A DNA stretch of 55,360 nucleotides from Chloroflexota bacterium (GTDB lineage Bacteria; Chloroflexota; Limnocylindria; Limnocylindrales; CSP1-4): NCBI GenBank assembly GCA_003141955.1, contig PLOC01000004.1:140-55499 (forward strand), in the 5' to 3' direction. Shown piece by piece: positions 16,105-38,828 of this stretch. Position 1 is the first letter of the stretch. Each line of letters starts with the position of its first letter. The notes under the pieces were generated by a model. That model was not told where the DNA came from and did no database searches. It saw nothing but the letters and a program-made list of their open reading frames with translations. The translations under genes were made by a program, and so were the position numbers.

Positions 16105-18159
16105 ATGCCTGATACCCATACTCCCGAGCGGGTCCCCCATTCGGTCTGGGCGCGGCCTCGGTTCCACCCCCGCCAGGTGCGCGGGCTGGGCCGCCGGATT
16201 GCGCCCAAGCTGGATCTTCTCGTGCTGGCCGCAACCCTCGCCGTGCTGGCGCTGAGCGTCGGCGCGCACTACCCGGCCGTTGCCGCGGTCGCTGTCGTGC
16301 TGGCCGGTCTGGTGGTCGTCCGCCAGCTGGTGACGGTCCGCCAGGTGGTGGAGATCGATCGGGCCCGTCGCAAGTCCGAGGCCCGGTTCGGCTGGCTGGT
16401 CATGAATTCATCCGATCTGATCATGGCGGTCGACGCCTCCCGCAGGATCGATTACGTGAGCCCATCCGTGGAGCGTCTGCTTGGGTCCGACGACGGCCGG
16501 CTCCTCGGCGCCCGCCTGACCGACCTTGCCCATCCGGAGGACGCCGGCGCCATCGAGGGGCTCCTGGACCGGGCGGCACGCTCGCCCGGCGAACGCGTCA
16601 GCGTCGAGTGGCGGCTCCGCCAGGGCGACGGCACGTGGCTGCCCGTCGAGACCGTGGCCACCAGCGGCGTGCTCGACGGCGACGCTCCCGGAGTCGTGCT
16701 CAACACCCGCGACCTGCAGGAGCGCAAGGCCCTCGAGCAGAAGCTGACGTTCCAGGCCTTTCACGATCCGCTGACCCGCCTGGCCAACCGAAGCCTCTTC
16801 CGCGAGCGCGTCGAGCATGCCCTCGAGCGGCGCCAGTCCGGCGACGCGGCGGTGCTGTTCATCGACCTGGACAACTTCAAGACTATCAACGACAGCCTGG
16901 GGCACGCCGCGGGCGATCACGTCCTGGTCGAGACGGCGCATCGGCTGCGCTCGACTCTGCGCGCGGAGGACACGGCGGCGCGGCTGGGCGGCGACGAGTT
17001 CGCGGTCCTGCTCGAGGACGCCGACGTGACCACTTCGGCGCGCATCGCGGAGCGCATCCGCTCCACGCTCGGAGTGCCGTTCTGGGTCATGGGCCAGGAG
17101 GTCTACATCAGCGCCAGCATCGGAATCGCGACGCGCGAGCCGGGCGACACGACCACCGAGCTGCTGCGCAACGCCGACGTGGCGATGTACACGGCCAAGA
17201 CGAAGGGCAAGGCCCGCTTCGAGATCTTCGAGGCCCGAATGCACGACGAGGTCGTGGCTCGCCTGGGCCTGGAGGCCGAGCTCCGCCGCGCCATCGACCG
17301 ACGCGAATTCGTGATCCACTACCAGCCGATCGTGAAGCTCGAGACGGGCGAGGTGATCGGGGCTGAGGCCCTGGTTCGCTGGCAGCATCCGACGCGCGGC
17401 CTGGTGCCTCCGATGGAGTTCATTCCGCTGGCGGAGGAGACGGGCCTGATCGTTCCGCTCGGCGGCTGGATCCTGCGGCAGGCCTGTCGCCAGCTGGCGG
17501 AATGGCAGCGCCTCCGCGGCGGCGGCGAACCGTTCGTCATGAACGTCAACCTGTCGTCGCGGCAACTGGTGCGCGACGCCATCGCGGACGAGGTGGCGGC
17601 GGCCGTGGACGAGTCGGGGATCCGGGCGAGCTGGCTCGTCCTGGAGGTGACGGAGACGGTCCTGATGGCGGACCCGGTGGTTGCCGCCACGGCCCTGGGA
17701 CACATCCGCGACCTGGGCGTGCGGGTGGCGTTGGACGACTTCGGCTCCGGCTACTCGTCGCTGAGCCATCTGCGTCGCTTCCCGATCGACATCGTCAAGA
17801 TCGACAAGTCGTTCGCCGACGACGTGGCGACCGGCGGGGTCGAGTCGGCGATCGCCCGGAGCATCATCGACCTGGGTCGGGCGATGCAGATCGACACGGT
17901 CGCCGAGGGGATCGAAGTCGATGAGCAGGCGGAGATGCTGCGGTCGCTGGGCTGCGAATTCGGCCAGGGCTTCTACTTCGCCAAACCGCTGGAGCCCGCG
18001 GCCTGGGAGGAGTTGCTCCAAACCGATGTGATCGGCGAGGCCGGCGGGGCCGACGGCGGCCCGGTCGATCATGGCGCGGGCAAGCGTGGCGCGAGCAGCC
18101 GTGGCGCGGGCAGCCGGCCCTCCGACACCAAACGGCGTAATCGGCGGGCCGCCGCGTAG
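16105..18159 (+). CDS. membrane PAS-GGDEF-EAL protein (c-di-GMP turnover)
   Basis: The 684-aa protein has two N-terminal transmembrane helices (about 36-53 and 57-73), a PAS domain (about 95-205), a GGDEF domain and an EAL domain. GGDEF is intact at 295-299, with the inhibitory-site motif RAED at 286-289 five residues upstream. EAL is intact at 421-423, and the later DDFGSGYSS and KIDKSF motifs are complete. It could therefore both make and break c-di-GMP. The tail is a low-complexity Gly/Ser/Arg stretch. A c-di-GMP riboswitch lies at 37130-37213. GGAGG directly abuts the ATG, poor spacing, so the true start may differ. Confidence 0.93.
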   Translation: MPDTHTPERVPHSVWARPRFHPRQVRGLGRRIAPKLDLLVLAATLAVLALSVGAHYPAVAAVAVVLAGLVVVRQLVTVRQVVEIDRARRKSEARFGWLVMNSSDLIMAVDASRRIDYVSPSVERLLGSDDGRLLGARLTDLAHPEDAGAIEGLLDRAARSPGERVSVEWRLRQGDGTWLPVETVATSGVLDGDAPGVVLNTRDLQERKALEQKLTFQAFHDPLTRLANRSLFRERVEHALERRQSGDAAVLFIDLDNFKTINDSLGHAAGDHVLVETAHRLRSTLRAEDTAARLGGDEFAVLLEDADVTTSARIAERIRSTLGVPFWVMGQEVYISASIGIATREPGDTTTELLRNADVAMYTAKTKGKARFEIFEARMHDEVVARLGLEAELRRAIDRREFVIHYQPIVKLETGEVIGAEALVRWQHPTRGLVPPMEFIPLAEETGLIVPLGGWILRQACRQLAEWQRLRGGGEPFVMNVNLSSRQLVRDAIADEVAAAVDESGIRASWLVLEVTETVLMADPVVAATALGHIRDLGVRVALDDFGSGYSSLSHLRRFPIDIVKIDKSFADDVATGGVESAIARSIIDLGRAMQIDTVAEGIEVDEQAEMLRSLGCEFGQGFYFAKPLEPAAWEELLQTDVIGEAGGADGGPVDHGAGKRGASSRGAGSRPSDTKRRNRRAAA

Positions 18160-36900: not shown

Positions 36901-37129
36901 GCGGTGGGCCCACGCTCAGTTTACGCAAGATCGCGCGCGCCACACGCGATCTCCAGGCGGTCCGGCGTCAGGCCAATGGGTGTCCATCTGTCGTGGCTAC
37001 GGTCGGCCCGCCGACGCCCGGTACCTTCGCCAAAGCCGTACACCCATTTGGTCCCCTCTCGGCCCCTGAGCTGGCGGTCGTAACCTCAAGTACGAACGCG
37101 CATTCGACCTGCTGCCGTTTCTGCGAATG

Positions 37130-37213
37130 CGGAGGGATCCACGAAAAGGCACACCCGCCGTGAGGCGGGGCCGCAAAGCCACGGAACTCCAGGCGAGTCA
37201 GCCGGGCTACCGA
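37130..37213 (+). promoter_or_regulatory. c-di-GMP-I (GEMM-I) riboswitch
   Basis: The aptamer core reads AAAGGCACACC, then a hairpin CGCC-GTGA-GGCG with a GNRA tetraloop, then GGGCCGCAAAGCCACGG, a short second hairpin and GCCGGGCTACCGA (ends 37213). These are the invariant blocks of class I c-di-GMP riboswitches, and the guanine that contacts the ligand (G20 equivalent) is kept. The ribosome binding site (GAGAGAGGG) follows within about 5 nt and the ATG is at 37227, with no terminator, so control of translation is likely. Bases 36901-37129 hold no other gene. Confidence 0.88.
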
Positions 37214-37226
37214 ATGAGAGAGGGTC

Positions 37227-38195
37227 ATGCCGCTTTCGAGCAGCGCCCATTCGACATCGCGCCGGAGCGATGCCGGTCCCGGGTCGAGTCGCGCCAGGCT
37301 CGGTCGCGCTGCGGTCGCGCTACTCCTTGTTGGAGGCCTCCTCTGCGCTTCCCCGTTGTCGGTCGCGGCGCAAGTCGCGCCCGCTGGGGCGCCGGCAACG
37401 GCGTCGACCGGGTCCACCGGCTCCGGCACCGCGGGGCCCTACAGCGCGGCCTCGCTCAGCTCGCAGCCGACGGTCGCCGCGGCGATTCCCTCGCTGGCGA
37501 GCACTGCCGCACCATCAGCCGCGGCCGCCACTCGAACCTTCGATCTATACGACCCGCGAGCCGAACGCTGGCAGAATCCCGACCTCAAGGCCTGCACTGC
37601 AGCCTCCACGCTGTCGATGCTGAACACCATCGCCTACTCCGGATCGGCCTCCGGGTTCGTTTGGAAGCCGACGACTTCCTATTCCACGCAGGAGTCGATC
37701 CTCGTCTTCGAGCGAGCGCACATGACGATGCTGGCCAAGTCGGCCGGCACCGATCCGCACGGCTGGCGCAACGCCCTCAACTACTTAGGCTGGGGCAGCG
37801 TCAACGCCGGCGTCTATGTCGACGCCTCGTACTCATCCTTCGATGCTGCCGCCAGGGCTGCCGTATCGGCCCTGGCCAGAACTCACAAGCCCGTTGGGAT
37901 CCTCGCCCTGTCGGGCGGTCATGCACAGTTCATCACGGGCTACAAAGTCCAGGGCGCTGATCCAAGCACCGGATCGATGACCTTCTCAGTCCTCGGCGTG
38001 TACCTGACCGACCCCTATCAGGCCGCCGGCCATCGCAACACCTGGATCACCTACGCGCAGTGGCACGCGGGCGGGACATGGGTGCGCTTCTCCCAGTATC
38101 TGCAGACCGACTCGCCGTATCGAGACCCGATCGATGGCCACATCGGCAAGAGCGAGTGGTTCGGAAAGTGGGTGATCATCGCCCCGGTCAAGTAG
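37227..38195 (+). CDS. secreted C39-like papain-fold protein under c-di-GMP control
   Basis: The 322-aa precursor has an N-terminal signal segment (hydrophobic about 27-48) and an Ala/Ser/Thr/Pro linker to about residue 100. A papain-like domain of the C39-like type follows. The probable catalytic Cys is C123 in LKACTAASTLSML and the His is H232 in ALSGGHAQFITGY. The YDP-R-A-E-R-W-Q-N-P block before the Cys and the DPYQAAGHR and WAGGTWV-like segments fit C39-like domains. It may process a surface protein or bind the wall. It is the gene directly behind the riboswitch, so c-di-GMP should set its translation. Confidence 0.75.
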   Translation: MPLSSSAHSTSRRSDAGPGSSRARLGRAAVALLLVGGLLCASPLSVAAQVAPAGAPATASTGSTGSGTAGPYSAASLSSQPTVAAAIPSLASTAAPSAAAATRTFDLYDPRAERWQNPDLKACTAASTLSMLNTIAYSGSASGFVWKPTTSYSTQESILVFERAHMTMLAKSAGTDPHGWRNALNYLGWGSVNAGVYVDASYSSFDAAARAAVSALARTHKPVGILALSGGHAQFITGYKVQGADPSTGSMTFSVLGVYLTDPYQAAGHRNTWITYAQWHAGGTWVRFSQYLQTDSPYRDPIDGHIGKSEWFGKWVIIAPVK

Positions 38196-38249
38196 CGGCT
38201 CGAGGTCCAGTCCGGCCCGCCACACAGCCAGGCCGGCGCACCAACTTGA

Positions 38250-38828
38250 GTGAATAGCAGGCATTACGTCGTGATCGATCTGCGGCAGCCAGGCATCAAG
38301 AAGGTCGTCGAGGTCGCCTCTCGCAAGGGAGTGGCCCTCGATATCCGACCCTTGCCCGGCTCCGCGCACACCGCCGATGAGGCCGCAGCGGTCCTGGATG
38401 CCGATCTCGGGCAGATGGTCAAGGCCGTGGTCTTCGTTGCCCCTCGGCCCGAGGGTCGCCTGGTGCCGATCGTCTGTCTTATCTCGGCTCGCAACCAGGT
38501 CGATCTGGCATTGCTAGCCGCGGTCACCGGCGAGGTCGCCATTCGAGCGGCCAGCGCTCAAGAGGCGCGCGAGCTGACCGGCTACTCGATCGACGCCATC
38601 GCGCCGTTCGGACACGGCCGCGAGGTGCGCGTCCTGATGGATCAGGATCTCTGCGCCTACCAGTGGATCTGGGCCGCCGCGGGCACCGAGTCGGCCGTCT
38701 TCCGGGTTGCGCCCCGGACGCTGCGGATGCTCTCCAACGCCGTCGTGGCTCCTGTCGCCACGGCCAGCTGGATGACGGCTCGCCGGGCTTTCTGGAGCGG
38801 AGCGACCACGCCCGCGCCTGCGCACTGA
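38250..38828 (+). CDS. YbaK/ProX-family aminoacyl-tRNA deacylase
   Basis: The 192-aa protein (GTG start) is a YbaK/EbsC domain, which hydrolyses misacylated tRNAs. The blocks HTADEAAAVLDADLGQMVKAVVF (about 39-61), GTESAVFRVAPRTLRML near 150 and DAIAPFGH near 110 match the family, including the conserved Lys that is essential in relatives. Substrate specificity (Cys-tRNA-Pro or other) cannot be read. It is 54 nt downstream of the secreted protein and may be in the same transcript, so its expression may also depend on the riboswitch. Confidence 0.85.
   Translation: MNSRHYVVIDLRQPGIKKVVEVASRKGVALDIRPLPGSAHTADEAAAVLDADLGQMVKAVVFVAPRPEGRLVPIVCLISARNQVDLALLAAVTGEVAIRAASAQEARELTGYSIDAIAPFGHGREVRVLMDQDLCAYQWIWAAAGTESAVFRVAPRTLRMLSNAVVAPVATASWMTARRAFWSGATTPAPAH

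Follow-up and report, generated by a model that had tools for sequence, protein, structure and literature searches.

A class I c-di-GMP riboswitch that probably controls a secreted C39-like protein in a Chloroflexota bacterium

In the 55,360-nucleotide stretch of DNA analysed here (the window), from a soil-type Chloroflexota bacterium, a secreted C39-like protein with a cysteine peptidase fold is probably under the control of a canonical class I c-di-GMP riboswitch, which most likely acts at translation initiation. The parts are known and their combination is new: an ordinary riboswitch with a new target family. The genome containing the window (2.8 Mb in 124 contigs) encodes 11 EAL domains and 17 GGDEF domains, the latter from 18 matches of which two belong to a single domain. 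A GGDEF-EAL protein encoded at about 16756-17988 of the window is a likely c-di-GMP enzyme. The features of the locus, in window coordinates, are as follows.

37100-37130, + strand: 5' hairpin GCATTCG(17-nt loop)CGAATGC, seven base pairs, just 5' of the aptamer and kept in the sister genome
37136-37140, + strand: GATCC, predicted P1 extension, able to pair with GGGTC at 37222-37226 and so to cover part of the Shine-Dalgarno region
37139-37215, + strand: c-di-GMP-I aptamer, with G20 at 37148, A47 at 37175 and C92 at 37210 (Vc2 numbering, from alignments to both Rfam models)
37216-37226, + strand: leader GAGAGAGGGTC, 11 nt, purine-rich, directly 3' of the aptamer, with the likely Shine-Dalgarno sequence inside
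37227-38195, + strand: secreted C39-like (papain-fold) protein, 322 aa, with a linker to about residue 98 and a catalytic-type domain at residues 99-322
38250-38828, + strand: YbaK-like aminoacyl-tRNA editing domain protein, GTG start, 54 nt downstream of the C39-like ORF

A cmscan search of the 55-kb window identified the c-di-GMP-I (GEMM-I) aptamer at 37139-37215 on the + strand with RF03167 (61.1 bits, E 5e-12), and a whole-genome scan matched the same RNA with RF01051 (61.4 bits, E 1.5e-11); both scores exceed the gathering thresholds, 59 bits for RF03167 and 35 bits for RF01051. The whole-genome Rfam scan revealed no second convincing c-di-GMP-I aptamer, leaving this one as the sole copy. 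The original prediction of a well-formed GEMM-I aptamer a few nucleotides 5' of a ribosome binding site is therefore borne out, with 11 nt between the aptamer end and the ATG, and is refined in that the top Rfam label is the GGC variant, although the pocket is canonical. By E-value, the best family is RF03167 (c-di-GMP-I-GGC). The names of such variant families reportedly stem from the work of Weinberg et al. in 2017. This assignment is consistent with a variant riboswitch of the GGC type, which would have an altered ligand specificity and respond to a signal other than c-di-GMP. The departures of the window RNA from the common RF01051 form, namely a J1/2 shorter by one base and, around P2, ACA for AAA and GCC for GAC, also point in that direction. 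However, the two models differ at Vc2 position 47, with G in the RF03167 consensus and A in that of RF01051, and the window carries A (consensus GACGCGAA vs window GCCGCAAA). The distinguishing mark of RF03167, with the meaning of 'GGC' taken from the model consensus, is thus absent, and RF01051 describes the same RNA at 61.4 bits. We therefore did not file the aptamer under RF03167 and rejected a GGC-type ligand specificity on the base at position 47; such a variant is quite improbable here.

The positions that contact the ligand in Vc2, G20, A47 and C92 (PMC4744006), are all canonical in the RF01051 alignment of the window aptamer, and the same combination is found in nearly all aptamers of the bacterial class. 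The conserved P2 and P3 elements are kept as well, with a P3 that is short compared with the common RF01051 form. Because A47, G20 and C92 are canonical, the expected ligand of the window RNA should be c-di-GMP.

The N-terminus of the 322-aa ORF is Arg-rich and is followed by a hydrophobic, signal-peptide-like stretch, a Pro/Ser/Thr/Ala-rich linker and a 224-aa domain. No Pfam family reached its cut-off with the window protein and PF13529 did not match it; NCBIfam gave no match either, and a family-profile sequence search of solved structures gave no papain-like match. Among the homologues, 3 of 15 had weak matches to Peptidase_C39_2 (PF13529), the best with an E-value of 0.0014. Residues 96-322 were modelled by AlphaFold2 at pLDDT 93.8. 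A Foldseek search using the model returned no E-value below 0.03, with papain-like structures at the top of the list, and VIA-align ranked C39 domains first, with PCAT1 (6mpz) at Z 13.3 and 2.4 Å over 133 residues and ComA (5xe9) at Z 12.4 and 2.7 Å over 132 residues; phytochelatin synthase (2bu3) tied with ComA at 12.4. In all 40 aligned sequences, Q116, C123, H232 and D262 (numbered on the full-length protein) are unchanged; from their order in that alignment they were read as the oxyanion Gln and the catalytic Cys, His and Asp. The C39 domains of PCAT1, ComA and Pfam Peptidase_C39_2 are the best fold matches and share the Q-C-H-D order. In contrast to the PCAT1 and ComA domains, to which it is 14-16% identical over the aligned part, the window domain is secreted and stand-alone, without fusion to an ABC transporter. 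By its modelled fold and its aligned catalytic set, the protein is C39-like, and it is a member of no Pfam family; the predicted signal-peptide-bearing C39-like protein is thus supported by the confident model, the invariant residues and the N-terminus alike.

Papain folds may also be kept by proteins that are no peptidases. The domain could be a transferase, an amidase or a binding module, given that phytochelatin synthase (Z 12.4) and isopeptidases are among the structures nearest to it in fold and that a common fold says nothing on function. The top rank of the C39 domains and the invariance of the catalytic set argue against such a role, which we regard as unlikely, if not negligibly so. 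In the relatives, the domain is preceded by Pro/Thr-rich linkers or by repeat regions that look fibronectin- and PKD-like by eye, an arrangement that fits a protein secreted or displayed at the surface.

The relatives found by sequence all belong to Chloroflexi MAGs, many of them from fen soil. The sister genome G050, of the same genus, has the same arrangement, with an aptamer identical at 77 of 77 positions. Its C39-like protein is 86% identical in amino acids (dN/dS about 0.27); nucleotide divergence from the window is 12% in the ORF and much higher farther upstream. G038, also of the same genus, has an intact aptamer 10 nt before a TTG start and a homologue with ~70% identity over the domain. 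The homologue in G040 lies behind a degenerate aptamer (E 0.011 to the UAU variant) that has lost the conserved GGC and one A in GCAAAGCC, and in G051 the aptamer persists before a 29-aa remnant ORF. At L134, around positions 2535-2700, an orphan aptamer scoring 55 bits stands before a 29-aa remnant whose start resembles that of the G038 protein, and the C39-like gene has apparently been lost.

One 12-member clade (support 90/92) contains all four homologues that have an aptamer, whether intact or decayed. The tree needs two changes in aptamer presence, and a single origin of the aptamer-gene pair is conceivable. Most homologues of the C39-like protein are without a riboswitch: among 16 other homologue loci scanned, three of which are paralogues in the window genome, an aptamer at E ≤ 1 was found at the G040 locus alone. 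The window genome encodes five further relatives of the protein (on contigs C117, C38, C18, C101 and C49), three of them close (48-58% identity), and the paralogues on C117, C38 and C18 have no riboswitch at E ≤ 1. Riboswitch and gene are kept together in G050 and G038, and in decayed form in G040, but not at the other homologues and paralogues checked. The Cys/His pair is kept in the homologues under the same switch.

Since decayed aptamers occur in the genus, the window aptamer might itself be genuine but decaying or non-functional, comparable to the relics near G040 and G051. One P1 mismatch in the window, paired in the sister sequence, is compatible with decay, as is the fact that paralogues in the same genome manage without the switch. 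Against this stand the full-length, high-scoring match, the retention of every pocket base and the absence of any change in 77 nt relative to a genome whose ORF diverges by 12%. We consider a relic very unlikely and a functional aptamer the better reading.

The downstream ORF at 38250-38828 matches PF04073 (tRNA_edit) with E 3.7e-21 and 75.9 bits (gathering threshold 25.5 bits), so a YbaK-like gene is present next to the C39-like gene, as predicted, and the two ORFs are possibly co-transcribed. Among the loci examined, it lies downstream of the C39-like gene solely in the sister genome G050. YbaK was therefore rejected as part of the unit beyond the sister pair.

Compared with the common RF01051 layout, the leader is just 11 nt long and lacks a terminator. 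Terminator prediction revealed no terminator-like site on the + strand between the aptamer and the start codon, and a transcription-terminator platform was rejected on these grounds. No sigma-70 consensus promoter was found upstream, a consensus that is uninformative for this GC-rich genome. As the short leader leaves no room for a terminator and prediction gave none, control is probably exerted at the level of translation.

In ViennaRNA folds, GATCC at 37136-37140 pairs with GGGTC at 37222-37226 with a probability of 0.44-0.84 in two of three folded lengths, and the pairing is absent in the third. This 5-bp extension of P1 is weak, and the sister genome keeps only part of it (G-U pairs plus one mismatch). 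Across the aptamers of the class, pairing between the 15 nt on the 5' side and the 15 nt on the 3' side is stronger than that of shuffled flanks (mean z -0.63, SE 0.10); over the whole set, control windows gave z from -0.33 to +0.23, and in permutations between sequences, 0-2 of 300 reached the observed value. Where the leader is short, the gain in pairing peaks at the two nucleotides immediately 3' of the aptamer, often part of GGAG-like sites. The observed pairing of the Shine-Dalgarno sites, however, lies only slightly above expectation (0.64 observed, 0.53 expected). The arm CGAATG of the 5' hairpin is repeated in P1 at 37211-37216, and the 5' arm of the hairpin could pair with either copy. 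Hairpins of different sequence seem, by eye, to sit at the same place beside other aptamers of the genus.

An extended P1 that hides the Shine-Dalgarno sequence suggests an OFF switch, a direction to which we assign somewhat more than an even chance. Binding of c-di-GMP would stabilise helix P1, whose 3' strand would run into the Shine-Dalgarno region through the GATCC-GGGTC pairing, and high c-di-GMP would lower translation of the C39-like gene. The enzyme would then act outside the cell at low c-di-GMP, and its substrate might be a surface protein, an envelope component or an external peptide. The fold cannot tell the direction of control, because in longer ViennaRNA folds the Shine-Dalgarno sequence is also masked by base pairs with coding sequence. 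With an ON switch, c-di-GMP would free the Shine-Dalgarno region and the enzyme would work in the sessile state, like gbpA under Vc1 of V. cholerae, where c-di-GMP raises GbpA (PMC4744006). One fold of the leader hides GAGAGAGGGT in a hairpin that includes the first codons and that the bound aptamer might keep from forming, and other targets in the class act on polysaccharides, which would suit either direction. On the other hand, P1 abuts and partly overlaps the Shine-Dalgarno region, which is the usual OFF layout, and the flank-pairing test favours an extended P1. An ON switch is thus a serious candidate at rather less than even chances, and OFF is the direction that we retain.

The original prediction compared the locus with c-di-GMP control of surface peptidases in Clostridioides. 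In C. difficile, a class I c-di-GMP riboswitch with negative control lies before the secreted protease gene zmpI/PPEP-1 (PMC6366702), and the analogy is fair in its logic, with a class I switch before the gene of a secreted protease or protease-like protein in both cases. It does not extend to the enzyme or the mechanism: ZmpI/PPEP-1 is a zinc metallopeptidase with a terminator platform and known adhesin substrates, none of which is found at the window locus, and the functional class I switches of C. difficile act by transcription termination (PMC6366702). Vc1-gbpA of V. cholerae likewise places a class I switch before a secreted protein, but GbpA binds chitin/GlcNAc and is no peptidase, and Vc1 increases expression (PMC4744006). 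For Bacillota, transglutaminase-like putative cysteine proteases (COG1305) have been listed behind tandem c-di-GMP-I aptamers (PMC12452182). The LapD-LapG system also links c-di-GMP to an exported protein of the Cys/His/Asp protease type, through protein contact (PMC3032545); LapG, however, is a periplasmic transglutaminase-like cysteine proteinase (DUF920/BTLCP) controlled at the protein level by LapD, without RNA control.

The window gene is one case of a wider habit of the class, in which a c-di-GMP-I aptamer precedes a secreted protein. Such aptamers occur in 73 of 177 genomes of the class, and 86 of 103 read G-A-C at the three pocket positions; about nine carry G20A, a change that lets class I aptamers take c-AMP-GMP (PMC6274999). 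Among confidently chosen downstream ORFs, 53 of 61 have a strongly hydrophobic N-terminal stretch, a count that leans upward because hydrophobicity was one term in the choice of ORF. The Pfam names downstream include Peptidase_S8, GH6 with CBM2, GH5, GH16, alginate lyase, Phosphoesterase and Peptidase_MA_2. In a class-wide reading whose chances we put at about even, the c-di-GMP-I riboswitch would be a general secretome switch, with targets among exported hydrolases (C39-like, subtilase, Peptidase_MA-like, GH 5/6/16 and alginate-lyase-like), numerous small secreted proteins and two membrane microproteins of 28-36 aa; the Shine-Dalgarno region would often lie beside or inside the P1 end, and some pockets would have shifted to the G20A of c-AMP-GMP riboswitches.

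Individual loci of the class gave further observations. Subtilase-family (PF00082) proteins are encoded behind such riboswitches at L152, L097, L114 and L148, and in a genome of the same genus as the window a GH6 cellulase with CBM2 (L161:1221-3128) is preceded at ~140 nt by a partial aptamer match of 30 bits. G20A aptamers (mostly GAGCACACC) at L136, L147, L157, L142, L146 and L115 precede secreted proteins; the proteins behind G20A aptamers start MSFWDG, MAFWDG or MFWDG/MFWNG, and one has a GH16 domain and one a Phosphoesterase domain. Riboswitch-linked microproteins of 28-36 aa were seen downstream of class aptamers at L083, L084, L086, L109, L111 and others. Two types, 'MKANLARFTxALxLLASxALTxGAGMRW' and 'MKxxxRxQAFRxLLALxxxASSALVLEAGxRW', each follow 19 aptamers in 17 genomes and stand in tandem behind 9 aptamers. 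Differences by codon position among ten 29-aa copies (393/274/543) suggest that the microproteins are coding.

A literature search found no account of c-di-GMP riboswitches in Chloroflexota. With the locus described here, an exported family with a cysteine peptidase fold joins the targets of c-di-GMP riboswitches, and the class-wide target list leads to testable predictions for uncultured soil and fen Chloroflexota. Control of exported proteases by c-di-GMP is known from C. difficile and Pseudomonas via other routes, and another independent link of this sort would favour the idea of a repeated coupling of surface proteolysis to c-di-GMP by cells.
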